Shown here piece by piece: positions 1,786 through 58,782 of a DNA stretch of 64,000 nucleotides. Location of the stretch: NCBI GenBank assembly GCA_037903475.1, contig JBAJFG010000100.1:62001-126000 (forward strand), read 5' to 3'. Within the stretch, counting starts at the first letter, position 1. Every line of letters starts with the position of its first letter. Under the pieces are notes generated by a model, which had not been told where the DNA came from, did no database searches, and was given only the letters and a program-made list of their open reading frames with translations. The translations under genes were made by a program, and so were the position numbers. The stretch comes from Ancylostoma caninum. Its lineage: Eukaryota; Nematoda; Chromadorea; Rhabditida; Ancylostomatidae.

Positions 1786-1849
1786 GATGCGAGCAAAGCG
1801 AGCACAAAAGAAACCTGAGAGTCCGGCGTTAGCCAGACGATTAGGTTGG
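1786..1849 (+). repeat. Helitron-like 3' terminus (divergent)
   Basis: ATGCGAGCAAAGCGAGC is followed by GAGTCCGGCGTTAGCCAGAC, a short hairpin, then a TTGG end followed by T. This matches the 3' end of the complete Helitron at 46,551-47,446 (GCGAGCGAAGCGAGC, hairpin, CTGG then T). The body to the left is different, so this is a related family or a chimeric or decayed copy. Confidence 0.45.
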
Positions 1850-2567: not shown

Positions 2568-3276
2568 CCAATCTGGCCGTCTGGCCAACCGCTGGACTTC
2601 CGGACTTCTATTGATGGTCGCTTCTCTCGTATACTGCAAGTTGAAAGCAAACACAAAGGTGTAAATGAATTGATAAAATCTGTAGCCTTCCACAGGGTTC
2701 TATCGCTCTCCTGAGAAGCCCTGGATCCGGTAGGTGGTAGCTTTCCCCCATATGAACGAAGTTATGCTCTCCCATATGCGCGAACTTAGTGGCCGTGAAG
2801 AATTGAGTGTAATCAATTCAGTGCAAATGTTATCTTGAAAAGATTAAAGCTCAACTGGTTGTTGTGGTAATTCAAGTGATAAGGGTCGACCGGTGTATAT
2901 AAGCGGAAAGGAAGGAGTGGTTCATTCAGACACAAACGGAATGGGAAGAGAACACGGATGCGAAAGGAAACAATGTACATCTAGGTGATTTAGATAGAAG
3001 GATCCGCCGGAACAGGGGAGGCGTACCCCTCATGCAGAAATAGACCCGCATAGCGAATTCCAATTACTTGTGGAAGCCGGCGCACCCTTATCACACCGTT
3101 GGACCCGACATCCAGGCGTTTCCCCACTTTTCGACGCCGGCGCACTCCTCAGCAACAGTGAACCCGTTGTAGAGCATTTTCTTCGGTCTAGGCCACGCCC
3201 TCGAATTTCGTTTCACACACATACACACGAACACACACACGTGACAGACTTTATAAGTCATGATTATAAGTCATGA
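2568..3276 (-). mobile_element. non-autonomous Helitron, copy A
   Basis: Read on the minus strand it begins TCATGACTTATAA and ends in a hairpin followed by CCAGATTGG and T (CTGG decayed to TTGG). The order of parts matches the other copies: 5' end, short CA-type microsatellite (about 3215-3240), two minisatellite units (about 3075-3160), the conserved TATATAA segment near 2895, and the hairpin 3' end. The terminal TTATAAGTCATGA is duplicated at the right edge (ends at 3263 and 3276). Confidence 0.75.
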
Positions 3277-6200
3277 TTTTTTAGCTCACACTAGCAATAG
3301 AGCGTGATCTACCTTGTTTTCTCCGTCGGGATGGCAGGATCAAGACGAGCCAGAAGCTGCAATACTCGCAGTTTAGGCAGGGTTAAACAAAATATCTGTG
3401 CACACGTATGTGCTTGGAGCGCAAGTATTATGTGGGGCGAAGCGAAGTGAGCCTACGCTCCAAATGCTATTGTCTGAGATGGTACGCAGTTTTTGCAGCA
3501 TGAGGGAGAGCCTGGGGACTGTTCTTATGTTAGCTAAGAGCACTGCATATGCAAACCAATTGGTATATGTGCATGGTGGAAATTTTTCATGCTTAGGTAA
3601 CAAAGAGAGCCAGGAAAAGGCTACGGAGAAAGGAGAGAAGCGAGCGGCAAAATCCAATCAGAGGCAATGAGATGGTGTACGTGATGCGGTCGCCGAGTTA
3701 CTGTGAAAGAAATGATTCCGCTGGTTCGTTTGCAAGTTATTCTAGTAGTTGTTATTCTTAAACCTTGTTCTCGGAAGTGAAGCTTCTGCTACCACTTCCA
3801 TGACACAGCTTTCTACATAGGCGTTGTTTCATCGAGGATATTGCTCATCTATAGGTTTCACCTTATATTTTTCATTGTTTCCACCCATTCAACGGGTTCT
3901 TTTCTTTGAAAATTTTTTCGTTCGCATGAGCATTGGGCTGGGGTTTGCTGTTTTGCATTTTGGCACGCACGGAAACAAATTTTCAATTACCTAAATTAAA
4001 GGAAACGTTCATCGAATATGTGCTGATATCTTGTGCCAACGTGTTTTGTTAAGTGAAACATCTTTATTGGCGTGACTGGCCAGCAATGAGACAGGTTCTG
4101 AGCTATCTAAAGTCTAGCCTGCTAAGCATCTATTCACCTTATCATAGAAGCCCAATATCGTTAAAAGCGTGGAAAGTAGTAGGTTGTCCCATAAAAAATG
4201 GCCGCAACTTAGTAATGCATTTTTGGAAGTTTATAAATCCATTATTTTAGAAGCTAGATAGACAAACTTTGAATTATTACGAAGAGAAGGACCTGCTCTA
4301 CCTGAATTCTAAAAATTCTTCTTCAATTGCACTTTCTACGGCTTCTGCAGACGCAATTGTACGATGAGGCAAAACATGGCTTTTGTGCTCTCTCGATTTT
4401 TAGACTATTTTTCTTGCACTAAAGGGACAAAAGCCAGATTTGGTGTTAGCTTTGCATTTGGCCAGGTAGTCGCGTTGTAAGCCCGCAGAAGCTGTGACTA
4501 GAGAAACACTTCCAGAACGATAGGAATTTTCAACTTTGACCAGGTTATGGTCCTGAAACTTCTCATATACGAAAGCATAGTTTTTGAGGCGGGACGAGAA
4601 TTTTGAAACAATCCATAAAAATGTTCGCAGCTAGGTTGGGCGCAACTAAATCACTGGTCGCTCTGCCTTCGGCAAAGTGGATTCTGAATAAAAGCGCTGC
4701 CGGTCAGTGCCTCACTTGCGACACCATTTAATTTAATCCCTCTAAAAAATACTGTTGCGAAATTTTCCGGAAAAATGGGTCACTTTCAGTGATGAGAAGG
4801 CATTGCTTGTTAAAATGAAGTTTTGTTTTGTTTGTTTCGCTGAGGGAGATATGGATAAGTAAAGGTGATTTTTTTTCTGATAGATGAAATGTTGCTCGAG
4901 GTGTTCGACAGTAGCTAGACCAGGGCACTAGCAGGATTTACCGAATGTCTAGCCTGTTACCATTTTAGGCTTGGCTTTGAGATTCGATTGAAAATGCCTC
5001 AGTTCTGGTGAGCCGAAGAAGTGCATGTCCACTGGCGGGGCGGGCAAATCCACACAGGTTCACATGCTACCAAGAAAAATTTCACTGAGTGGGGCGTTGG
5101 ACCTCTCCTTCTAATATTGTGTTGGGCAGACCTTTGCCTAATAGAGTATCCTTTCGAGCTTGCGGTGAACCCAGTTTTTGGCTAGAAAATTCATGCGAAT
5201 CAAGGTGTATTGAAAATTGACCTTTCGCGCTTCGTTGACCCCTGTGATTTGGGCTCCTTTCCTTACACAAGTTACACTGTAGCGCTAAAATGTGCAAGAA
5301 ATGCTGATCATAATCTTTTTATTCTAAGGGAAAATCTCAAGTTTGAGCTGAGTTATGCACCTTGGAATGCGCACCGCCATTATTTATGGGACAACCTAAT
5401 AGAAATCACGCCTGCCAAAAGTAGCTATCCATTACTTCATCAATAGTGCTCCTGGCGCACTATACTGCCAAATGTGAAAGACTGACAAGTAAAGTGCACG
5501 AACTTAAACTGCCATCCCAGGACGAAACCTGTGCATGTAGTTAGGGTGCTTGTTCAACAAGATGTTAAAGGCTATACTTGAAAACAGGCTATACTTCACT
5601 TGCCAAATGGTTTACAGAAGCTCAGAATTACTACAGAAAACCGAGAAAATTGCCGATTCTGGCAGGAACATGGGAGATGAAGTTGATGTTCATGCAAATG
5701 ATATTGGTAGTCGTGATCAGCGCCTGAAAATACTCCTACTTACAAAAATTCGGAAGATATTGCGAGACCCCGTAACTCCCCTATGTCCACTGCTGTGTTC
5801 CAACTATGGGCTCTGCACGTGCACTGCGGTGTGCCTGTGCGAAAAAGGGCATAACTCTTGATAGAGACAAGATTCGGGGAAGTCAAAAAACTGATTCAAA
5901 ATCAGCGTCGGAATTGGACAAGGCAATCGACAATTTGCTGTAGAAGGAACGGAGGGTATGCCACACCGGAGTATCCTTCCCTTATCAGCACGTTCGGAGG
6001 TCATCGATGTGGAACTCTGGGCTTCTTAAACCATACAGCAGATTCCAACTGTAGCCTCTAACATCACGTTGGTCATGCTGTCTAACCATCTAGGTGATGT
6101 GAATCATGATTCCTAGCCTAAAATGTTTACAAGGTCACCGCTGCCAATCTCGATACCAGTTTATTAACTTTAGAACCATTGTTATTTGTTCCATGATTGT

Positions 6201-11802: not shown

Positions 11803-11875
11803 CCAGTCTGGCCGTCCGGCTACCGCCGGCCTTCCAGACTTCTTCTAATGCTCGCTTCGCTCGCACTAACTCATC
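11803..11875 (-). repeat. solo Helitron-type 3' end
   Basis: CCAGTCTGGCCGTCCGGCTA at the left edge, preceded by A, is the same terminus as the minus-strand Helitrons at 12,860 and 28,015. The TGCTCGCTTCGCTCGC block follows as in those copies. After about 11,875 the similarity stops, so this is a truncated copy or a different body with the same end. Confidence 0.55.
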
Positions 11876-12479
11876 TTATAACCACACCAATGTAACATAT
11901 GGTCCTACCGATTTTCCTAATGGAAAATCAACAGGAAATGTGGCATTGCATTGCTTTTTCTAGCTATCTTTCCTTCACGCTACAAAGTGGATAGGCTACA
12001 AAGTAGTAACATCCTGTTTTGGTTCAGCTTTCGGTTGATTGCAGCAGCTACCTACAACCGATTTACCACGGAATGATGAGAGAAAATGTTTCCCGGTTCT
12101 TGCATGTTATGGTTGCTAAAGTGATAAGGGTTAGCATGAGTATACAAAAGAGGGCGCTGGGGTATGATTAGGTGCAAATGAGATGGAACCAACAGTGAGG
12201 TGGTGGCAGATGGAACGAAGGATAGAAACGCACACTGTACACCTACTATAGGGTGCCATGGTTTGACACATACCAATATTGGGCCATCACTTGGAGGAGA
12301 ACACGTAGTATGCTGTTCGTTCCTCTTCCTAATTGGCGCAGTCGCACTTCTCCAACAACACCTAGTTCCGCCTACGGATAGATGGCTACGACGCGACTAT
12401 GGCTGTGGCGTGCAATCTTGAGTAGAGCTGCCCAGCGTACAGATGTGGGGAGTCGCCGGCCGACGTGTCCAATAGTGTG
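11876..12479. other. no gene recognised
   Basis: No supported feature. Open frames of about 75 codons on both strands show no motif. Confidence 0.4.
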
Positions 12480-12857
12480 ATAAGAGGATGTGCTGAATTA
12501 TCCCCGCGTCTTAACGCCTTCAAACTTTTAGGCTTCGGCGCGCCCTTACCACAGCAGGGACCCGTCTCCTCACTTCTCGGTGCCGGCGCACCCTTATCAC
12601 AGCAGGGGACCCGTCTCCCCCACTTCTGGGCGCCTGCGCACCCTTATCACAGCAGTGGACCCGTCTCCCCACTTCTCGGCGCCGGCGCACCCTTATCACA
12701 GCAGTGGACCTGCAGGGAGTCTGCTAGCAACCTCGAGGTATGATTGGAATAGGACAACCGCCCTACTTTCTCTTCAAAACAGGATGAACGAATTTCGTGA
12801 CACACAGACAGACACACACACACACATACAGAATAAGCCCGTTATTATAAGTCATGA
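12480..12857 (-). mobile_element. non-autonomous Helitron, truncated copy B0
   Basis: It holds the minus-strand 5' end (TCATGACTTATAATAACGGG, complement of 12,838-12,857), a short CA microsatellite (about 12,815-12,830) and three to four minisatellite units at about 12,535-12,720. Those units are about 50 bp and lack the CCAGGCGTTT part of the usual 59-bp unit. The TATA segment and hairpin end are missing on the left. It abuts copy B with only TA between. Confidence 0.65.
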
Positions 12858-13187
12858 TACCAGTCTGGCCATCCGGCTAAGTCCGGACTTCCAGAACTTC
12901 TGTTAATGCTCGCTTCGCTCGCATTCTGCACGTTGAAAGCAAACACAGAAGTGTAAATGGATTGATAAAATCTGTATCCTTCCACGCAGTTCTATCGCTC
13001 TCCTGAGAAGCCCTTATTCTCGTAGGTAGTAGCTTTCCCCCATATGAACGAAGTTATGCTCTCCCGTATGAGCGAAGTTAGTGGCCGTGAGGAATTCAGT
13101 GTAACCAATTCAGTGCGAATGTTATCTTGAAATGATTTAGGCTCAACTGGTTGTTGTGGTAATTGAAGTGGTAAGGGTCCACCTGTG

Positions 13188-13250
13188 TATATAAACGGAA
13201 AGGAAGGAGTGGTTCATTCAGACACAAATGGAATGGTAAGAGAACACGGA
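13188..13250 (+). promoter_or_regulatory. conserved TATA-containing segment inside Helitron B
   Basis: GTGTATATAAACGGAAAGGA followed by AGGAGTGGTTCATTCAGAC is kept nearly unchanged in copies A (about 2893), C (about 28,330) and, inverted, D (about 47,085-47,125). A TATA-like box with a conserved downstream stretch suggests a polymerase II start site reading toward the minisatellite. This is inference from conservation only. Confidence 0.3.
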
Positions 13251-13364
13251 TACGAAAGGAAACAATGTACACCTAGGTGATTTAGGTAGGAGGGTCCACC
13301 GAAACAGGGTAAACGTACCCCTCATGCAGAAATAAACCGTCTAGGGAATTCCTATTATTTGTGG

Positions 13365-13530
13365 AAGCCGGCGCACCCTTATCATATCGTTGGAGCAGAC
13401 TCCAGGCGTTTTCCCGCTTTTGGACGCCGGCGCACCCTTATCACACCGTTGGACTCGACTCCAGGCGTTTTCCCGCTTTTGGACGCCGGCGCACTCCTAC
13501 AGCAACAGTGGACCCGTCGTAGAGCATTTT
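13365..13530. repeat. 59-bp-type minisatellite, ~3 units
   Basis: Units carry GCCGGCGCACCCTTATCACA, then GTTGGA and CTCCAGGCGTTTTCCCGCTT. They are homologous to the longer arrays at 28,515-29,125 and 52,747-53,545. Confidence 0.8.
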
Positions 13531-13562
13531 CGTCGGTCTAGACCACGCCCTCGAATTTCACT

Positions 13563-16002
13563 TCACATACATACATACATACATACATACATACATACAT
13601 ACATACATACATACATACATACATACATACATACATACATACATACATACCATACATACATACATACATACATACATACATACATACATACATACATACA
13701 TACATACATACATACATACATACATACATACATACATACATACATACATACATACATACATACATACATACATACATACATACATACATACATACATACA
13801 TACATACATACATACATACATACATACATACATACATACATACATACATACATACATACATACATACATACATACATACATACATACATACATACATACA
13901 TACATACATACATACATACATACATACATACATACATACATACATACATACATACATACATACATACATACATACATACATACATACATACATACATACA
14001 TACATACATACATACATACATACATACATACATACATACATACATACATACATACATACATACATACATACATACATACATACATACATACATACATACA
14101 TACATACATACATACATACATACATACATACATACATACATACATACATACATACATACATACATACATACATACATACATACATACATACATACATACA
14201 TACATACATACATACATACATACATACATACATACATACATACATACATACATACATACATACATACATACATACATACATACATACATACATACATACA
14301 TACATACATACATACATACATACATACATACATACATACATACATACATACATACATACATACATACATACATACATACATACATACATACATACATACA
14401 TACATACATACATACATACATACATACATACATACATACATACATACATACATACATACATACATACATACATACATACATACATACATACATACATACA
14501 TACATACATACATACATACATACATACATACATACATACATACATACATACATACATACATACATACATACATACATACATACATACATACATACATACA
14601 TACATACATACATACATACATACATACATACATACATACATACATACATACATACATACATACATACATACATACATACATACATACATACATACATACA
14701 TACATACATACATACATACATACATACATACATACATACATACATACATACATACATACATACATACATACATACATACATACATACATACATACATACA
14801 TACATACATACATACATACATACATACATACATACATACATACATACATACATACATACATACATACATACATACATACATACATACATACATACATACA
14901 TACATACATACATACATACATACATACATACATACATACATACATACATACATACATACATACATACATACATACATACATACATACATACATACATACA
15001 TACATACATACATACATACATACATACATACATACATACATACATACATACATACATACATACATACATACATACATACATACATACATACATACATACA
15101 TACATACATACATACATACATACATACATACATACATACATACATACATACATACATACATACATACATACATACATACATACATACATACATACATACA
15201 TACATACATACATACATACATACATACATACATACATACATACATACATACATACATACATACATACATACATACATACATACATACATACATACATACA
15301 TACATACATACATACATACATACATACATACATACATACATACATACATACATACATACATACATACATACATACATACATACATACATACATACATACA
15401 TACATACATACATACATACATACATACATACATACATACATACATACATACATACATACATACATACATACATACATACATACATACATACATACATACA
15501 TACATACATACATACATACATACATACATACATACATACATACATACATACATACATACATACATACATACATACATACATACATACATACATACATACA
15601 TACATACATACATACATACATACATACATACATACATACATACATACATACATACATACATACATACATACATACATACATACATACATACATACATACA
15701 TACATACATACATACATACATACATACATACATACATACATACATACATACATACATACATACATACATACATACATACATACATACATACATACATACA
15801 TACATACATACATACATACATACATACATACATACATACATACATACATACATACATACATACATACATACATACATACATACATACATACATACATACA
15901 TACATACATACATACATACATACATACATACATACATACATACATACATACATACATACATACATACATACATACATACATACATACATACATACATACA
16001 TA
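13563..16002. repeat. CATA/TACA microsatellite, about 610 units
   Basis: About 2.44 kb of uninterrupted ACAT tetranucleotide with a single phase slip at 13,650-13,651 (TACC). A 4-bp unit without stops opens every frame. The long YIHT and CMYV frames here are therefore artefacts. The extreme purity could be real recent expansion or an assembly product. Confidence 0.97.
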
Positions 16003-16245
16003 CCCCCCCCCGAGAATGGGTCGCCAAATTTTCGAAATTACTTTACAATACAAATAAAAATCTTGTGTTAGTTTATTTTTAATTGTTTATTTTTATTATT
16101 ATTTTTAATATATTTTTTATTTATTGTTTATTATTATAATTAATATTATTATTAATTTTATTTTCCGTCTGGGTCCCCAAAACGGCGGAGACCCCACTTT
16201 TCTTCCCACGCCCCCCCTCCCGCCCACTTTCTGCGTCCGCCACTG
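16003..16245 (-). mobile_element. hAT-type MITE inside the microsatellite (one end lost)
   Basis: Inverse copy of the element at 31,848-32,123. It shares GAGAATGGGTCGCCAAATTT, the TTATTTTTATTATTATTTTT-like AT-rich core, GGGTCCCCAAAACGGCGGAG and the end CTGCGTCCGCCACTG. The left end stops at a C run next to the array, so the CAGTGGCGGACGCAG terminus and the left duplication are missing. Array resumes directly after 16,245. Confidence 0.8.
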
Positions 16246-16355
16246 ATACATACATACATACATACATACATACATACATACATACATACATACATACATA
16301 CATACATACATACATACATACATACATACATACATACATACATACATACATACAT

Positions 16356-16411
<56 letters not shown>

Positions 16412-16415
16412 TGAG
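16246..16415. repeat. microsatellites: CATA, CA and GA tracts
   Basis: CATA units run to about 16,372, then CA repeats to about 16,385, then a GA tract of about 13 units to about 16,411. This is the Helitron's 5'-proximal microsatellite, continuing on the far side of the inserted MITE. Confidence 0.95.
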
Positions 16416-16435
16416 CCCGTTATTATAAGTCATGA

Positions 16436-25029: not shown

Positions 25030-25657
25030 TTATGTCAGTGTGTGTGTGTACAAGAGAACCAGACCCTACCGGAAAAATTGCATCACGACGTCCAACGTGT
25101 CAAGTTATGCAGGAAAAGTGTGCAAATTTTCATTTTTACCTTAATTGACAGGTGTTTTGGTCCACTTTTCGTCGGTTGGAAGACCCACAGTTGTTTACAT
25201 CACAGTAGAAATGAATGAACCTCGGTATTTATTTGCCTATATTTATCAAGTCATGTGTAGGATAACATCCGGATGAGTATGGTTTAGAGAGAAGGGGTCC
25301 AGCCAGATAGACGTGAAACAGCAAGGGCGGTGGGGAAATTAGGGGAAACGGGCTACTGCTATGGAATAGCTGCGCCAGCTTTCTGTAGTGGAAACTATGC
25401 CACTGTACGGGTCCACGGATGCGAGTTTGATGTACCGGAGTGCAGCAATGGGTAAGATGCCACTGGACGGGTCCACAGCTGCAAGAGTGGTGCGCCGACG
25501 CCGAGAAGTGGGAGAGATGCTACTGGAAGGGTCCGCGTATGCGAGAGTGGTCCGCCGGCCAGTAGTAGAGTACGTATCACTCGAAAGCGTGGCGAGCGAA
25601 GCGAGCCTAAAAGAAGCCCGAGAGGCCGGCGTTAGGCGGACGATCAGGCTGGTGTAA
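25030..25657 (+). mobile_element. Helitron-like element with 60-bp minisatellite
   Basis: Its 3' end (GCGAGCGAAGCGAGC, GGCCGGCGTTAGGCGGACG hairpin, CAGGCTGG then T at 25,658) follows the same plan as the complete Helitrons. About four 60-bp units occupy 25,335-25,565 (GGTCCAC at 25,410, 25,470 and 25,530). The left part matches 631-835. The 5' TC terminus was not located, so the left boundary is approximate. Confidence 0.5.
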
Positions 25658-28014: not shown

Positions 28015-29245
28015 CCAGTCTGGCCGTCCGGCTAACGCCGGACTTCGGGACTTCTATTGATGTTCGCTTCGCTCGCATACTCACATTGAAAGCAAACACA
28101 AAGGCGTAATTGGATTGATAAAATCTGTAGCCTTCCACAGGGTTCTATCGCTTTCCTGAGAAGCCCTTGATCCCGTAGGTGGTAGCTTTCCCCCATATTA
28201 TGCTCTCCCATATGTGCGAAGTTAGTGGCCGTGAAGAATTGAGGGTGACCAATTCAGTGCAAAAGTTATCTTGAAAAGATTGAAGCTCAACTGGTTGTTG
28301 TGGTAATTCAAGTGATAAGGGTCGACCGGTGTATATAAGCGGAAAGGAAGGAGTGGTTCATTCAGACACAAACGGAATGGGAAGAGAACACGGATGCGAA
28401 AGGAAACAATGTACATCTAGGTGATTTAGCTAGGAGGATCCGCCGGAACAGGGGAAGCGTATCCCTCAAGCAGAAATAGACCCGCGTAGCGAATTCCAAT
28501 TACTTGTGAAAGCCGGCGCACCCTTACCACACCGTTGAACCCGACATCCAGGCGTTTCCCCATTTTTCGACGTTGGCGCACCTTTATCACACCGTTGAAC
28601 CCGACTCCAGGCGTTTACCCAATTTTCGACGCCGGCACACCCTTATCAAACCGTAGGACCCGACTCCAGGCGTTTCCCCACTTTTGGACGCCGGCGCACC
28701 CTTATCACACCGTTGGACCCGACTCTAGGCGTTTCCCCACTTTTCGACGCCAGCGCACCCCTATCACACCGTTGGACCCGGCCCCAGGCGTTTCCCCACT
28801 TTTGGACGCCGGCGCACCCTTATCACACCGTTGGACCCGACTCCAGGCGTTTCCCCACTTTTCGACGCCGGCGCACCCTTATCACACCGCTGGACCCGAC
28901 TCCAGGCATTTTCCCACTTTTGGACGCCGGCGCACACTTATCACACCGTTGGACCCGACTCCGTGCGTTTTCCCACTTTTGGACGCCGGCGCACACTTAT
29001 CACACCGTTGGACCCGACATCCAGGCGTTTCCCCACTTTTGGACGCCGGCGCACCCTTATCACACCGTTGGACCCGACATCAAGGCGTTTCCCCACTTTT
29101 CGACGCCGGCGCACTCCTACAGCAACAGTGAACCCGTTGTAGAGCATTTTTTTCGGTCTAGGCCACGCCCTCGAATTTCGTTTCACACACACATACACAC
29201 GCACACACACACGTGACAGACTAAGCCCTTTATTTTAAGTCATGA
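28015..29245 (-). mobile_element. non-autonomous Helitron, copy C (complete)
   Basis: On the minus strand it begins TCATGACTTAAAATAAAGGG (preceded by A) and ends GGCCAGACTGG followed by T (complement of A at 28,014). The 3' hairpin is the perfect GTCCGGC-TAAC-GCCGGAC. In + order it holds the hairpin end, the TGTTCGCTTCGCTCGC block, the TATATAA segment (about 28,330), about ten minisatellite units (28,515-29,125), a CA microsatellite and the 5' end. It encodes nothing; any mobility would depend on Rep/helicase supplied elsewhere. Confidence 0.85.
28515..29125. repeat. 59-bp minisatellite, ~10 units
   Basis: Unit CGCCGGCGCACCCTTATCAC, ACCGTTGGACCCGACTCCAG, GCGTTTCCCCACTTTT(G/C)GA. No stop codon in any plus frame, so open frames of 100-200 codons arise without coding meaning. 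Confidence 0.95.
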
Positions 29246-29574: not shown

Positions 29575-30135
29575 TCGGGCCAACGCAGACGCGTTCTCCA
29601 TCGGCGGAACTGTATCCTGCCGTTCCCCACACTACTGGATAGAGCGAAATCGTATCCGAGTGTTTTCCACACTACTGGGCTGCAGCGGACTTTCCTCCAT
29701 CGTTGGACCCGTATTGTGGAGCCATCTTCACTATTAGGCCTGAACCGTATCCTAGTATTCTCCACTTCACTGAGTCACAGCGGACCAATCCTATATCGGC
29801 GGACCCGTATCCTGGTGTTATCCATACTACTGAGCAACGGCGGCCCTTCCTCCATCAGAGCGCCCGCATTCTGGCGCCTTCCTAACAGGCAGCGCAAGCC
29901 GGACACGTTCTCCAGAGGCGGGTTCGCATCCTGGCATTCTCAACACTATCGGACTGAAATGAACCCGTATCCTGACGTTCCCCACAGCACTGGGCCACGG
30001 CGGGCCCTTTCTCCATCGGTGGACCCGTATCCTGGCGTTCCCCACAGCACTGGGCCACGGCGGGCCCTTTCTCCATCGGTGGACCCGTATCTCGGCGTTC
30101 GCCGCACCATTGGGCCACGGCGGGCCCTTTGGCCC
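29575..30135. repeat. 60-bp minisatellite, ~9 units
   Basis: The last units are nearly identical, with CCCGTATC at 60-bp steps (29,964, 30,024, 30,084); earlier ones are more diverged. The unit GGACCCGTATCCTGGCGTTC, CCCACAGCACTGGGCCACGG, CGGGCCCTTTCTCCATCGGT aligns with the Helitron 59-bp unit. Because 60 is a multiple of three it reads as a 20-residue repeat, but I see no gene signals around it. Confidence 0.9.
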
Positions 30136-31847: not shown

Positions 31848-32123
31848 CAGTGGCGGACGCAGAAAGTGGGCGGGAGGGGGGGCGTGGGAAGAAAAGTGGG
31901 GTCTCCGCCGTTTTGGGGACCCAGACGGAAAATAAAATTAATAATAATATTAATTATAATAATAAACAATAAATAAAAAATATATTAAAAATAATAATAA
32001 AAATAAACAATTAAAAATAAACTAACACAAGATTTTTATTTGTATTGTAAAGTAATTTCGAAAATTTGGCGACCCATTCTCGGGGGGGGGCGCCCCCCCC
32101 CCCCCCCCCTGCGTCCGCCACTG
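31848..32123 (+). mobile_element. hAT-type MITE, 276 bp, complete
   Basis: Inverted ends CAGTGGCGGACGCAG and CTGCGTCCGCCACTG are flanked by a perfect 8-bp duplication GTAGGTGT (31,840-31,847 and 32,124-32,131). An 8-bp duplication with CAG/CTG ends is the hAT signature. The core is AT-rich, then GGCGACCCATTCTC and G/C runs (32,083-32,109). A second copy sits in the microsatellite at 16,003. Confidence 0.88.
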
Positions 32124-46550: not shown

Positions 46551-46584
46551 TCATGACTTATAATAACGGGCTTACATCGTCTGT

Positions 46585-46678
<94 letters not shown>

Positions 46679-47446
46679 GAAATTCCCTGATTGGTCAGTG
46701 ATGGTGATTACGAGGTCAACAAGATCATAGGGACGGGTGTGGTGAGGTTCAAAGAATGAAGAGAAGCTCTAACGGAAGGGAAAGTGGAGAGGGGTGCACC
46801 GCGGTGTAGAGGGTGCGCCGGCGCCGAAAAGTGGGGAAACGCCTGGAGTCGGGTCCAACGGTGTGATAAGGGTGCGCCGGCGCCGAAAAGTGGGGAAACG
46901 CCTGGAGTCGGGTCCATCGGTGTGATGAGGGTGCGCCGGCTTGCACAAGTAGTAGGAATTTGCTAGGCGGGTCTATTCCTGCATTAGGGGTACGCTTATC
47001 CTGTTTCGGCGGGCCCTCCTACCTAAATCAGCTAGATGTACATTGTTTCCTTTCGTATCCGTGTTCTCTTATCATTCCGTTTGCGTCTGAATGAACCACT
47101 CCTTCCTTTCCGTTTATATACACCGGTGGACCCTTATCACTTGAATTACCACAACAACCAGTTGAGCCTAAATCATTTAAGATAATATTTGCACTGAATT
47201 GGTTACACTCAGTTCTTCACGACCACTAACTTCGCTCATATGGAAGAGAATAACTTCGTTCATATGGAGGAAAGCTACCACCTACGGGATCAAGGGTTTC
47301 TTAGGAGAGCGATAGAACTGCGTGGAAGGATGCAGATTTTATCAATCCATTTACACTTTTGTGTTTGCCTTCAACGTGCAGTATGCGAGCGAAGCGAGCA
47401 TCAATAGAAGTCTGGAAGTCCGGCGTTAGCCAGACGGTCAGACTGG
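46551..47446 (+). mobile_element. non-autonomous Helitron, copy D (complete, forward)
   Basis: It starts TCATGACTTATAATAACGGG preceded by A (46,550) and ends AGTCCGGCGTTAGCCAGACG, GTCAGACTGG followed by T (47,447). These are canonical Helitron ends (5' TC, hairpin, 3' CTRR, insertion between A and T). Between them lie a GT microsatellite (46,589-46,674), a spacer shared with copy E, about 2.5 minisatellite units (46,795-46,940), the inverted TATA segment (TTTATATACACC near 47,115) and GCGAGCGAAGCGAGC at 47,386-47,400. No Rep/helicase is encoded. Confidence 0.9.
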
Positions 47447-52603: not shown

Positions 52604-52746
52604 GGCGGAAAGGTTGGGAAGAGAACACGGATACGGAAGGAAACAATGTACATCTAGCTGATTTAGGTAGGAGGGCCCACCGAAACAGGATAAGCGTACC
52701 CCTAATGCAGGAATAGACCCGCCTAGCAAATTCCTATTACTTGTGC

Positions 52747-53545
52747 AAGCCGGCGCACCCTTATCACACCACTGGACCCGACTCCAGGCGTTTCCCCACT
52801 TTTGAACGCCGGCGCACCCTTATCACACTGTTGGACCCGACTTCAGGCGTTTCCCCACTTTTGGACGCCGGCGCACCCTTATCACACCGTTGAACCCGAC
52901 TCCAGGCGTTTCCCCACTTTTGGACGCCGGCGCACCCTTATCACACCGTTGGACCCGACTCCAGGCGTTTCCCCACTTTTGGACGCCGGCGCACCCTTAT
53001 CACACCGTTGGACCCGACTCCAGGCGTTTCCCCACTTTTGGACGCCTGCGCACCCTTATCACACCGCTGGACCCGACTCCAGGCGTTTCCCCACTTTTCG
53101 ACGCCGGCGCACCCTTATCACACCGTTGGACCTGACATCCAGGCGTCAGGCGTTTCCGCACTTTTCGGCGCCGGCGCCCCCCTTATCACACCGTTACCCG
53201 ACTCCAGGTGTTTCCTCACTTTTGGACGCCGGCGCACCCTTATCACACCGCTGGACCCGACTCCTGGCGTTTCCCCACTTTTGGACGCCGGCGCACCCTT
53301 ATCACACCGTTGGACCTGACATCCAGGCGTCAGGCGTTTCCCCACTTTTCGGCGCCGGCGCCCCCCCTTATCACACCGTTACCCGACTCCAGGTGTTTCC
53401 TCACTTTTGGACGCCGGCGCACCTTTATCGCATCGTTGGGCCCGACTCCAGGCGTTTCCCCACTTTTGGACGCCGGCGCACCCTTATCGCATCGTTGGGC
53501 CCAACTTCAGGCGTTTCCCCACTTTTCGGCGCCGGCGCACCCTCC
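52747..53545. repeat. 59-bp minisatellite, ~13 units
   Basis: Exact 59-bp spacing in the best units (CGCCGG at 52,925 and 52,984). A higher-order block, units with CAGGCGTCAGGCGTTTCC and GCCCCCC, occurs twice (53,130-53,220 and 53,310-53,400), showing recent multi-unit duplication. The 268-codon open frame across it is an artefact. Confidence 0.95.
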
Positions 53546-53678
53546 ACACCGCGGTGCACTCACCCCTCTCCACTTTCCCTTCCGTTAGAGCTTCTCTTCA
53601 TTCTTTGAACCTCACCACACCCGTCCCTATCATCTTGTTGACCTCGTAATCACTATCACTGACCAATCAGGGAATTTC

Positions 53679-53895
<217 letters not shown>

Positions 53896-53930
53896 GACAG
53901 ACGAAGTAAGCCCGTTATTATAAGTCATGA

Positions 53931-54700: not shown

Positions 54701-54920
54701 ACCATTTCATATGATCAGAATATCGAATATTCGAGCGACGCGTTCGAATAGTGGGGGCTCCCGAATATTCGAGTAATCGAATATATTCGAAAATTGAATT
54801 TTCGAGTGTCCGAATTTCGAATATGTTTGAAAAATAAAAATTTCGAATATTCGAATTTTTAAATGATCCCATTCTAATGACTTATTCGAATGACCGAATA
54901 AGTATTCGATTCGGTTGCAA
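54701..54920. repeat. hAT-like terminus fragment (TATTCGAA-rich)
   Basis: Repeated TTCGAATATTCGA palindromes ending in AATAAGTATTCGATTCGGTT resemble the right end of the 57,115-58,734 element (TTTTATTCGATTCGGTCAAA). The terminal AAAACTCTA is missing. Confidence 0.5.
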
Positions 54921-55099
54921 GTACATACATTACACATCGACGCTGTCGCTGTGACCGTTCACCACCAAAACATTCGTACAACTGCTCCTATGCCTGTACG
55001 CTATTCCACGCAAGTTGTGTGATAAGATAATAACTTTAACGTTTTGTTCTCATCATTTCTCATTTCCTTAACAGCGACAGTGTTCTTCACAATGTATGG
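54921..55099. mobile_element. ~179-bp MITE, GGCATACTTC family
   Basis: GTACATACATTACACATCGA plus CGCTGTCGCTG at the left and CAGCGACAGTGTTCTTCACA plus ATGTAT at the right. The internal text is shared with 36,888-37,070. Confidence 0.65.
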
Positions 55100-56439
55100 T
55101 GATATAGTGATATGTCCAGAAGGGACCAGCATTTAAACAGAATGAAAATGACTATATATACATGCTCTTTCAGAATTTTTCAAACATTCTGCAAAACAAT
55201 GAATTAATGCTGATAGGACGATAGTTGCCTGGATCAGAAGCAGTACGATGCATCTAAATTTCATCTCACGTGATTCTACAAGCTTCAGCTTGAGAGGTGC
55301 TGTTATAATAGAACTATAATTGGCAGGCACACATTTCTACACCCTCATTAGGATACCTCATGGGCCTAATGCTGTGCAGGAATCCTGGTCATACGAAGCT
55401 TGAGCACTGAAGCCACTAGACGTATGAAAGAGAACTGGAAAGGGTTAGGCGGCGATGTTCGCTAGAACAAGCAGTTTCAATGAGCGGAAACTCTACACTT
55501 TCACTGTGGTTAGTACCGATGTGTTTCTTCTCAGAAATGTTCCGCTTCAAATAGGAACAGTTTCAGATAAGCAGGCACTACTTTGAAAACGCTGCAGTCA
55601 CAAATCTTCAATGAAATCCATGCTCCCCTGTCCAGAACAGAAAAAGGTAGGTTCTCTTGCAAACCCATTTTTCATACAGTGGGTGGTGATGTGGGGGGGG
55701 GGTAACCGGATAAACGTAGGAAGTACTGTTAGGATCAAAAATTCTCAAATAATTTCTATTTGAAGAAGTATCTTCCGTGCACGCAGCTGAGATCGTTATA
55801 TCGCTGAGTAGGTCTTGACGTAAAAAAAAAGAATTCGCTCATTCTCAGGAACATCCAAAACTGTGATTTCATCAAAAGACCGACTGCTTGAGAAAACCGC
55901 AATTGGCATTAGGTGAGCACGCAATGGGAGACGACCCCAGCGTTTGCATACTGGTTGTGCCAGAAATTCGATGCTTGTATCAAAAAACCCAAGGTTTTTA
56001 GTTGCGAAGTTGAAAATGCAGGTTAAAGTTCTGTGAATATCACTCACAACTGGCTCTGTTTATAATTGATCGCAAGGCGATGAGGGTCGTGGCGGCAGCC
56101 ACGATATGTGACATCCACAACGTCAGTGATCGCTGCACGCAACAAACGCGACTCTATTTGGGCCCACTGTGCGGTACTACGTGGTGGACTGTACTCGAAG
56201 GAAAAAAAAGTATAAACAGCACACAACGGCGACCCACGACACCACATCACAACCACTAATTGTCAGAATGCAACCGTACTATTCGCATGTTCCCAAACGG
56301 AACCAGCCAGCTTTTGACTAGTTGCACGTGCGCGAAGAACGCGCCTTTCTGACGTTTGAGTACGGCCATTAAAGATGGTATTATGCAAAGGTGTTCGATA
56401 TCACCTCTTGTTGAAATCGTGCAGATATTTATCAGGAAC
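55100..56439. other. no gene recognised (1.3 kb)
   Basis: The minus-strand frames 55,796-56,047 and 56,044-56,256 abut but show no motif I recognise. G run at 55,690-55,701. Confidence 0.35.
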
Positions 56440-56645
56440 GGAAATTGTGCAAGTCCTACGTCAGCCACGAACGCAGGCCGAACGGTATAGCTTTCGACCC
56501 TTTAGCAGAAATTGCCGAGGGATGGCAGCAATTAAGGGGAGGATGGCAGCAACTGGGAACCATTGCTGCTAGGCTTTGTACTCGACCCATTACGCCGTTC
56601 GGGCTGCGTTCGTGCAGCACAGTTATCAGAGTCCTCATTTCCAAA
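56440..56645. mobile_element. inverted-repeat MITE, CACGAACGCAGGCCGAACGG ends
   Basis: CACGAACGCAGGCCGAACGG (56,466-56,485) pairs with CCGTTCGGGCTGCGTTCGTG (56,595-56,614), with GATGGCAGCAA repeats between. Relative at 47,447-47,650. Confidence 0.65.
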
Positions 56646-56917
56646 GATTCTGCCTGCCCTGCCCTTCAAAACGTCATGCTCTAAATATGACCTACAGCAA
56701 ACACATCAGCACTGCCATAGCATATCACTATGTACGGCCTCTAAAATCGTCCTACTAGAATTTTCCACAGGCCTGCTTAGTCGAGAAGTCGAGAAGTGAC
56801 GTTTTGTGAGGACGATCATTTAGATGTTGAAAAATCCAAGGGTCAAGACCCACAGCAAGCACTAGCCCACATGAAAACTGCCAGTGTAGTCACCGTGTTA
56901 CCTGGATTTCATTGTTA
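56646..56917. other. no gene recognised
   Basis: No supported feature. Confidence 0.4.
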
Positions 56918-58782
56918 TAGTCTGTCCGGAACGACGAGTCCGCCCACGCACGCGGGGATCGAGAAGATACCACGTTTGCCAGCGCTCCACGTCATCATCC
57001 CTGATCTGCGTATCACGTTTCATCGTTATTTTCATGTTATTGACCAATGATTTGGCTGTGATGTGGACGACGTGGCAGCCAACAGCATCCGTCCCAGCCG
57101 CGCCGCCTCTCGATTAGAGTTTTACATTCGAAAATATTTTTCGAATATTCGAATATTCGAATTTTCGAACTTTTGGGAACCCCCGAATTTTCGAATATTC
57201 GAATTTCCGAATTTTTGCGAACCATCGAATTTTCGAATATTCGAATTTTCGAATAAACCCGGACCCTCGAATTTTCGAATATTCGAACTTTCGAATTTCT
57301 AGGGATCTCCGAATTTTCGAATGTTCGAATTTTTGCGAACCACCGAATTTTCGAATATTCGAACTTTCGAATATTCGAATGTTCGAATATTTATTCGAAT
57401 AACATTCCATTTGGTAAAAACATTTTGTACTCATGCATGTAGGCGAACAAGGCGATATTTTTGCCAATCACAACGGGCATGAAACTTTTCGGGTAGTAAG
57501 TTTCATCTGCCGTTTTGGAATTTCTCACAACCTTCTCATGAGTGGAAGCTTGTGCTGCTGTGGATTTGGTCCCTCATCCGTTTTAGAATTGCAACTGGTT
57601 GAAATTCCTAAGCTTAAGAACGCTTATCTCACTTGAGGTCTGTAACCATCATTAAAGGATCGTAAAGTGGATGAAACCCTTCGAACGTGAGAAGGCTTTC
57701 GCTTTAATATCTCTGCGTTGTAGTTTAACAAAACGAGCCATGGTAGTGAATGTAGAGGTAGAGGTTTTGACGCGGAAAAATAATGTTGGGTACAGTGGTT
57801 CAGTTACCTTGCTCATGAATGAGTTTCCAGCTATCAACAAAAAAGCGCCAGCGACATAAAAAAAACACTGCGTGTTATCCCGTTTCTCATTATTACTTCT
57901 GTTTATCGGGTCCAACTGCATGCTTGTACGTTGAATGTTAAGACCAACAGAACTTCTATAACAAGAAGTCGGAGTATGTTTGGGCAGAAAGGTTAATAAG
58001 AGGATCTCAAGATTTTGTGTGAGCTTCGAATTCCATTGCTGACGGTTATGCACTTAGAAAGAGTTTCAACGAAGCAGTAGTCGGGAATCAGCTAAATATA
58101 AGGAGGAATGCTGTGTAAAAGTTATTATTGTTGTTTGCAGTTCACTTACTTCACTTACATAGTTCTGGAGAAAAGGTTTGGATAATCGGAACTTTAGTTG
58201 AAACTGCTGGTTTCTCAAGTGTCTAGAAAAGCACATACGCACGTTTTACCGGAGAGATCATCGTCGCCAATGTCGTAAACCTCGTAGGATTGCAGTTTCA
58301 AAGCTTTCAAATGCAGTTGGTGACTTTCGAATGCGTGCAAAGATGTGAGCAGGTTTTTGGGAAAATTGAGATTAAAATGAGGAATTGGACTGGAGTTTCA
58401 GTGGGAATGGTTCTTCATCGAGAAAATGGAACTGAAATAACAGTTGCGAAGCAGAACAATTGCAAATATTCGAATTTTCGGCCTAAAATTTTCGAATATT
58501 CGAATTTTCGAATAATCCCGAACCCTCGAATTTTCGAATATTCGAACTTTCGAATATTGCAGGGCCATCGAATTTTCGAATATTCGAATTTTCGAATTTT
58601 TTGGGACCACCGAATTTTCGAATATTCGAACTTTCGAGTTTTTCGGAACCTCCGAATTTTCGAATATTCGAATTTTCGAATATTCGAACATTCGAATAAA
58701 TATTCGAATTTTATTCGATTCGGTCAAAACTCTACTCTCGATCCCTGCGTGCGTGGGAGGACTCGTCGTTTCGGACAGACTA
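56918..58782 (-). mobile_element. 237-bp TA-target MITE, split by a hAT-like insertion
   Basis: Inverse copy of 40,531-40,767. The parts 56,918-57,114 (197 bp) and 58,743-58,782 (40 bp) sum to exactly 237 bp, the length of the intact copy. The ends are TAGTCTGTCCGGAACGACGA and CGTCGTTTCGGACAGACTA. TA precedes the left end; the right flank is CA, decayed. Confidence 0.92.
57115..58734. mobile_element. hAT-like element, 1,620 bp, TATTCGAA-rich ends
   Basis: The perfect 8-bp duplication CTCTCGAT (57,107-57,114 and 58,735-58,742) flanks inverted ends TAGAGTTTT and AAAACTCTA. Subterminal arrays of TATTCGAATTTTCGAA-type palindromes occupy 57,126-57,405 and 58,460-58,720 and are mutually inverted. 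The AT-moderate interior (57,410-58,455) has frames of 60-130 codons with no recognisable transposase, so it is non-autonomous. The assignment to hAT rests on duplication length and the TAG/CTA ends. Confidence 0.88.

Follow-up and report, generated by a model that had tools for sequence, protein, structure and literature searches.

Canonical Helitrons begin with TC and end with CTRR, carry a palindrome of 16-20 nt about 11 nt from the 3' end, and insert between A and T without duplicating the target. Helentrons and the HINE/DINE-1 elements are characterised by subterminal inverted repeats of 11-15 nt, a TT target and an endonuclease. The closest match in kind to the family reported here is found among the Helitrons of C. 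elegans, where satellites beside the transposase gene are already known: Helitron1_CE and related elements are described as nematode Helitrons in which satellites flank the transposase gene of full elements, while incomplete elements bear one satellite family (PMC9918286, PMC4595182). The repeat units given in these descriptions measure 15, 31 and 32/35 nt, whereas those reported here measure 49, 50 and 59 bp. The C. elegans elements are further described as containing heat-shock elements (PMC6765114, PMC6927752). The bat element Helraiser/Helibat1 is alike, according to its description, in its TC and CTRR ends, a hairpin 11 nt from the end, a Rep/helicase and exact 3'-to-5' junctions, but it ends in CTAG where the hookworm family ends in CTGG (PMC4778049). 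The outer hairpin stem and the internal arrays of the hookworm family may be further differences from Helibat1. DINE-1/HINE elements, including the oyster Cg_HINE, are described with a 5' microsatellite, a central satellite-like array and a 3' palindrome (PMC4067079, PMC7492417); the layout of a 5' microsatellite with central repeats is common to them and the hookworm family, membership is not.

We analysed a window of 64,000 nucleotides (C165:62,001-126,000 of the searched assembly, which comprises 348 Mb in 638 contigs), in which a first-pass annotation had proposed six copies of a Helitron family with internal tandem repeats. We are nearly certain that these copies belong to a canonical non-autonomous Helitron family, most likely of the Ancylostoma caninum genome, that would be mobilised in trans by Rep/helicase Helitrons sharing its ends. 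The family is ordinary in kind and unusually complete as an example, for a single assembly offers nearly the full set of an open autonomous element, 3' termini, empty sites, end-to-end junctions and variable arrays. Among the titles listed by full-text searches on Helitron together with Ancylostoma or hookworm, none describes the family; Repbase and most subscription papers lie outside that scope, and the family may be named there.

Copies, termini and target sites

A BLAST search of the window with parts of copy E returned six 5' ends (at 3,276; 12,857; 16,435; 29,245; 46,551; and 53,930), all six with the TCATGACTTA start and a preceding A. It also found copies A, C, D and E with complete tails and copy F with 130 bases of tail; of three more 3' modules, the one at 11,803 was assigned to copy B by pairing of ends. 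Copies A, B, C, D and E are complete and copy F is 3'-truncated. The features are as follows.

46551..47446, plus strand: copy E, a complete non-autonomous Helitron of 896 bp, A|TC...CTGG|T, placed by its ends and by BLAST
46551..46587, plus strand: 5' terminal module of copy E (TCATGACTTATAATAACGGG...), sharing its first 24 nt with the autonomous C16 element
46588..46674, plus strand: (GT)43 microsatellite of copy E
46675..46809, plus strand: spacer of copy E, 76% to the autonomous C16 element over 74 aligned positions
46810..46940, plus strand: 59-bp minisatellite of copy E, 2.2 units
46941..47383, plus strand: body of copy E, which matches neither the C16 element nor the C39 stretch significantly
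47384..47446, plus strand: 3' module of copy E, a two-storey hairpin and the CTGG end
2568..3276, minus strand: copy A, 709 bp, a single minisatellite unit, TTGG|T end, initial 13 nt doubled
11803..12857, minus strand: copy B, 1,055 bp, 49-bp units, a differing body, CTGG|T end at 11,803
12860..16435, minus strand: copy C, 3,576 bp, with an ACAT/GTAT repeat of about 2.4 kb
16003..16245, minus strand: unrelated repeat within the microsatellite of copy C, boundaries approximate
28015..29245, minus strand: copy D, 1,231 bp, ten 59-bp units
52619..53930, minus strand: copy F, 3'-truncated, (CA)105 and thirteen 59-bp units
25592..25652, plus strand: 3' end belonging to a Helitron subfamily of the related C39 type, ...GATCAGGCTGG|T
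1787..1839, plus strand: fragment of a 3' module

The evidence supports the first-pass interpretation as correct in kind and corrects its details for copies A, B and F. Six copies had been given TC...CTGG ends; five of them have both ends, copy F lacks the 3' end and copy A ends in TTGG. Copy B had been made to end at 12,480, where there is no CTGG, the true end lying at 11,803 on the minus strand, and 52,616, the proposed end of copy F, is no element end, since tail similarity stops at 52,619. Copies A, C, D and E follow the internal order of TC end, microsatellite, spacer, minisatellite, body, hairpin and 3' end. A 59-bp minisatellite had been attributed to all six, which has to be amended for copy B with its 49-bp units and for copy A with only one unit. 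At an E-value of 0.001, copies B and E match in the minisatellite, in 58-68 bp at the start and in 63 bp at the end, and nowhere else. Only two bases separate copies B and C, which are arranged tail to head.

Several smaller observations concern the window itself. The tandem duplication of the initial 13 bases of copy A (TCATGACTTATAATCATGACTTATAA) occupies positions 3251-3278. A short dispersed repeat with a CAGTGGCGGACGCAG start and an AT-rich interior is present at 16003-16245 and at 31848-32081, the former splitting the ACAT array of copy C. Minisatellites of 60 bp lie near Helitron copies at window 29963-30130, which was matched by the 59-bp minisatellite query, and at L034 7635-8001; both possibly come from another Helitron family. 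The stretch from 54762 to 58697 has several tandem repeats of the AATTTTCGAA type (41-42 bp), which do not seem to be related to the Helitrons.

The termini were followed into further copies. The window and the 30 loci from the initial search supplied twenty-three copies with both ends, a set without copy B and without L014, where another 3' end is fused to a 5' end that misses its first bases. All 23 are preceded by A and 22 are followed by T, in agreement with the A/T flanks proposed for the window copies; the one exception, L019, has C after the element. A wider non-redundant set holds 50 3' ends (47 found by BLAST together with those of C16, C39 and window 25,652, with copy A and the fragment at 1,839 not included), of which 44 read CTGG, three CTGC, and one each CTAG, CCGG and CTTG, and 49 are followed by T. 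At the other end, 36 of 38 5' matches start with TC, the exceptions being the decayed end of L032 and the fused end of L014, and A stands ahead of 36; the 38 include window 3,263, the inner half of the duplication in copy A. The ends stay constant as copies are added, which the first-pass annotation had named as a check on its reading.

Genome-wide, the 30-nt 3' terminus followed by T occurs 1,910 times at up to two mismatches, as against zero for the reversed-pattern control, an abundance that exceeds chance; a first-look tally of 2,686 candidates is not a copy number. Exact 18-mer 3' ends are followed by T in 1,341 of 1,361 cases, and 14 of the 20 others are followed by C. Thirty-one exact 5' ends stand after a base other than A (23 of them after G), a count that covers the non-A ends alone.

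The 3' end has the consensus GAAGTCTGGAAGTCCGGCGTTAGCCGGACGGCCAGACTGG. Its inner stem of 7 bp, closed by a 4-nt loop, stops 11 nt from the terminus, and each inner pair is formed in 46-49 of the 50 ends, which bears out the claim of a hairpin just before the 3' end. An outer 7-bp stem (AGTCTGG/CCAGACT), set off from the inner one by a 2-by-2 internal loop, reaches into the CTGG and stops two bases from the terminus, with each outer pair formed in 45-48 of the 50 ends. Pairs 5-36 and 9-32 show two-sided changes in the C39 and window-25,652 ends; because these two ends are mutually related, the changes count as one or two events, not many.

Empty sites, which the first-pass annotation had expected to read as plain AT, were found for two insertions. 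The insertion at L019 is hosted by a dispersed repeat and has three empty paralogues (window 16,012-16,252, window 31,848-32,081 and L003 181-417). Alignments to the two window paralogues read ACGGAAAA|TAAAAT, a plain A|T across the site, and the match of L003 181-417 to the L019 locus spans the junction. For the L009 insertion, one empty relative at the same locus reads ...AAAA|TACAAAT, again with a plain A|T. No base is gained or lost at the aligned empty sites (L019 against the window, and L009). Target duplications bounding the copies were considered and rejected: among the 23 copies, flank matches longer than two bases occur only at L007 (at least 14 bases) and L026 (six bases), both in TA-rich repeats. 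A junction-spanning match between copy C and its own 5' region was likewise discarded as an empty site, being an artefact of the 5' end of copy B in the right flank of copy C.

An autonomous element with the same two ends

A search of the genome with PF14214 gave 96 matches from 108 candidates, all of which were scored. The DNA downstream was read for seven of the 96, over 3 kb each at C39, C16, C171, C509, C160 and C258 and over 2 kb at C44. The 3' module of the family lies on the coding strand at two of the seven, C16 (64 bp, 87.5%) and C39 (64 aligned positions, 79.7%). No matching coding-strand 3' end was found within 3 kb at C509, C160, C258 or C171, C258 having one on the opposite strand, and none was found within 2 kb at C44. 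Among the seven loci read, both family ends were found only at C16.

The full-length autonomous element at C16:1,307,224-1,318,236 measures 11,013 bp and is the partner that the first-pass annotation had suggested looking for, a Rep/helicase element that has its ends in common with the family. Its 5' end matches in 24 of 24 nt and is preceded by A. There follow a degenerate GTCT/GTAT stretch at the position of the microsatellite, the ACGAAATTC anchor, a spacer, a minisatellite of 20.2 units of 50 bp, a frame of 1,709 aa and a further 2.2 kb. The frame is open and contains the Helitron_like_N, PIF1 and Pif1_2B domains (PF14214, PF05970 and PF21530). Over residues 620-1120 (501 residues), the protein is 100% identical to ANCCAN_01988 of Ancylostoma caninum, and the next match at full coverage, from A. 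ceylanicum, reaches 84%. Among the examined loci and the window, matches to the C16 element are confined to its end and its first 3 kb, where almost all of them lie in the initial 2 kb that holds the array, and the 0.44-kb body of copy E is absent from it. With every feature that could be checked agreeing with canonical Helitrons, membership in that group is well supported.

The C39 locus has a frame of 1,554 aa with 27.3 units of 59 bp upstream and decayed units after the frame. In these decayed units, the 59-bp unit scores 50 as against a maximum of 25 in 200 shuffles, and the 50-bp unit scores 26 as against a maximum of 29; in the region after the C16 frame, no unit score exceeded the shuffles. 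An array stands upstream of the gene at both C16 and C39; the C39 array may or may not lie inside its element, whose own 5' end was not found. Although the C16 and C39 transposases share only 44.8% identity, the consensus unit of the C39 array and the unit of the non-autonomous family agree in 56 of 59 positions, which would fit a working minisatellite. It is conceivable, if rather unlikely, that the minisatellite acts as a cis part, for example as clustered binding sites that serve the transposase or its gene's promoter, and that it has been maintained by selection or passed between lineages.

Variation and origin of the arrays

In most of the 27 copies examined, the microsatellite occupies one site, TGTCAC(GT)n...GAAACGAAATTC. 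Its GT/TG runs range from 4 to 280 repeats in these copies, some with TA or GTAT units, and L017 (plus strand) has no such run. The minisatellite counts one to several dozen units across copies, though with a bias in the distribution of these numbers, because the first 40 scored copies were chosen by likeness to the two-unit copy E. Over 33 pairings of ends, including a 3-bp artefact at L014, total length reaches 3,576 bp, and length minus arrays has a median of 683 (IQR 663-689), with L016, L041, B and C among the outliers. Copy length thus varies mostly via the two arrays, and the great variation in array length noticed at first pass is confirmed. A link between microsatellite and minisatellite length was rejected (rho -0.16, p 0.37, over the 33 pairings including the L014 artefact).

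We compared 248 monomers from 45 arrays, a set that counts copy E two times, under L001 and in the window, and includes the duplicates L024/L025. Monomers of one array show 94.5% identity and those of different arrays 91.2%, and 71 of 246 monomers have their closest relative within their own array, as against 9.5 expected. The loci L039 and L040 are inverted copies of one duplicated segment, with 98.1% identity over 4.2 kb, and carry 12.3 and 13.3 units of 50 bp; because these duplicates differ by one unit, arrays change by whole units after insertion. The earlier description of the family as a generator of tandem repeats holds in this sense only, as change of array length. Slippage or unequal exchange is the usual explanation for such change. 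At L033 (C629:507000-516500), three 3' ends lie in series within a single TRF entry (112 copies of 59 bp), and the resemblance between the 3' flanks of two of them, some 2 kb apart, suggests that arrays have exchanged unequally. As a natural system, the family would be well suited to ask whether the length of Helitron arrays changes during or after transposition and whether an array benefits the element. It also explains part of the dispersed GT/ACAT microsatellites and 50/59-bp minisatellites of this genome, which is relevant for users of such markers.

The arrays bear on two other readings of the family. If the arrays were satellites captured separately by different copies and foreign to the ancestral element, the coexistence of 49/50-bp and 59-bp units would be readily understood, and Helitrons are described as able to capture tandem repeats (PMC12628747). 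We nevertheless hold such independent capture to be very improbable, since the C16 element has the microsatellite remnant, spacer and minisatellite in order between its 5' end and its gene, both unit lengths occur within a single array in L039 and again in L040, and a single 9-bp gap with a few mismatches suffices to align the 50-bp unit with the 59-bp unit. Because the C16 element has both arrays in the same order, they are most probably long-standing parts of the autonomous Helitron, from which the family would have inherited its 5' microsatellite and minisatellite. The earlier suggestion that the arrays travel with the element is well supported by the arrays of this autonomous element. A different assignment, to the Helentron-associated elements of HINE/DINE-1 type with a 5'-proximal microsatellite, central tandem repeats and a 3' palindrome, draws on module order and satellite content, which fit the descriptions of DINE-1 and the oyster Cg_HINE (PMC4067079, PMC7492417). 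It can hardly be maintained against ends of TC/CTGG, a target of A|T rather than TT, and a C16 frame of 1,709 aa in which no Pfam endonuclease domain was found. Subterminal inverted repeats stayed at shuffle level in seven of eight tests on copies A, C, D and E, and the eighth, an 11-nt repeat with one mismatch in copy A, was equalled by one of 60 shuffles. With the inverted repeats, the TT target and the endonuclease domain all failing, Helentron/DINE-1 membership was rejected.

Heat-shock elements in the hookworm arrays, as in C. elegans, were also considered and rejected. The core GAANNTTC/TTCNNGAA is absent from copy E, from the C39 array and from the first 1.4 kb of C16, and the whole C16 element has seven cores as against a shuffle mean of 5.7.

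Exact end-to-end junctions and transposition

The junction pattern CTGG|TC, at up to two mismatches, occurs six times genome-wide and zero times in the reversed-pattern control. All 31 5' ends without a preceding A were read with 60 upstream bases: five directly abut a 3' end of the family or of the C39 type, two more (L087 and L088) abut, by eye, other hairpin-like 3' ends, and the remaining 24 do not. Among the six junctions, two join a C39-type 3' end to a family 5' end and three join the family's own ends exactly; the sixth (C638) is known from the pattern alone, the five others having been read further upstream. The junctions at L065 and L079 have identical 45 upstream bases and may represent one event copied.

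Such junctions need not be traces of circles or read-through. Helitrons could have inserted exactly at the 3' ends of other Helitrons, as the two C39-type junctions would suggest and as the hairpin-like 3' ends directly upstream at L087 and L088, recognised by eye, would also fit. We regard this as a real possibility that falls somewhat short of an even chance, against which stand the three junctions (two of them perhaps one event) that link the family's own ends exactly, as described for the 3'-to-5' end junction of Helraiser circles (PMC4778049). The resemblance of the six exact junctions to that circle junction would be an indirect sign of rolling-circle transposition.

For a family transposing by rolling circle, we infer a sequence of nicking, peeling and joining, with mobilisation in trans. 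A Rep nuclease would nick at the 5'-TC, and a single strand would be peeled off and copied as far as the 3' hairpin and CTGG. The ends would then be joined as a circle or concatemer, the strand would be inserted between A and T, and the arrays of each copy would afterwards lengthen or shorten independently.

Two further arrangements of 3' ends were observed. Those upstream of L087 and L088 resemble, by eye, other Helitron families, one of them ending in CTAG. Among the matches listed, 3' ends also occur in tail-to-tail pairs at C4:25602-25679 (18 bases apart) and C19:47790-47858 (9 bases apart).
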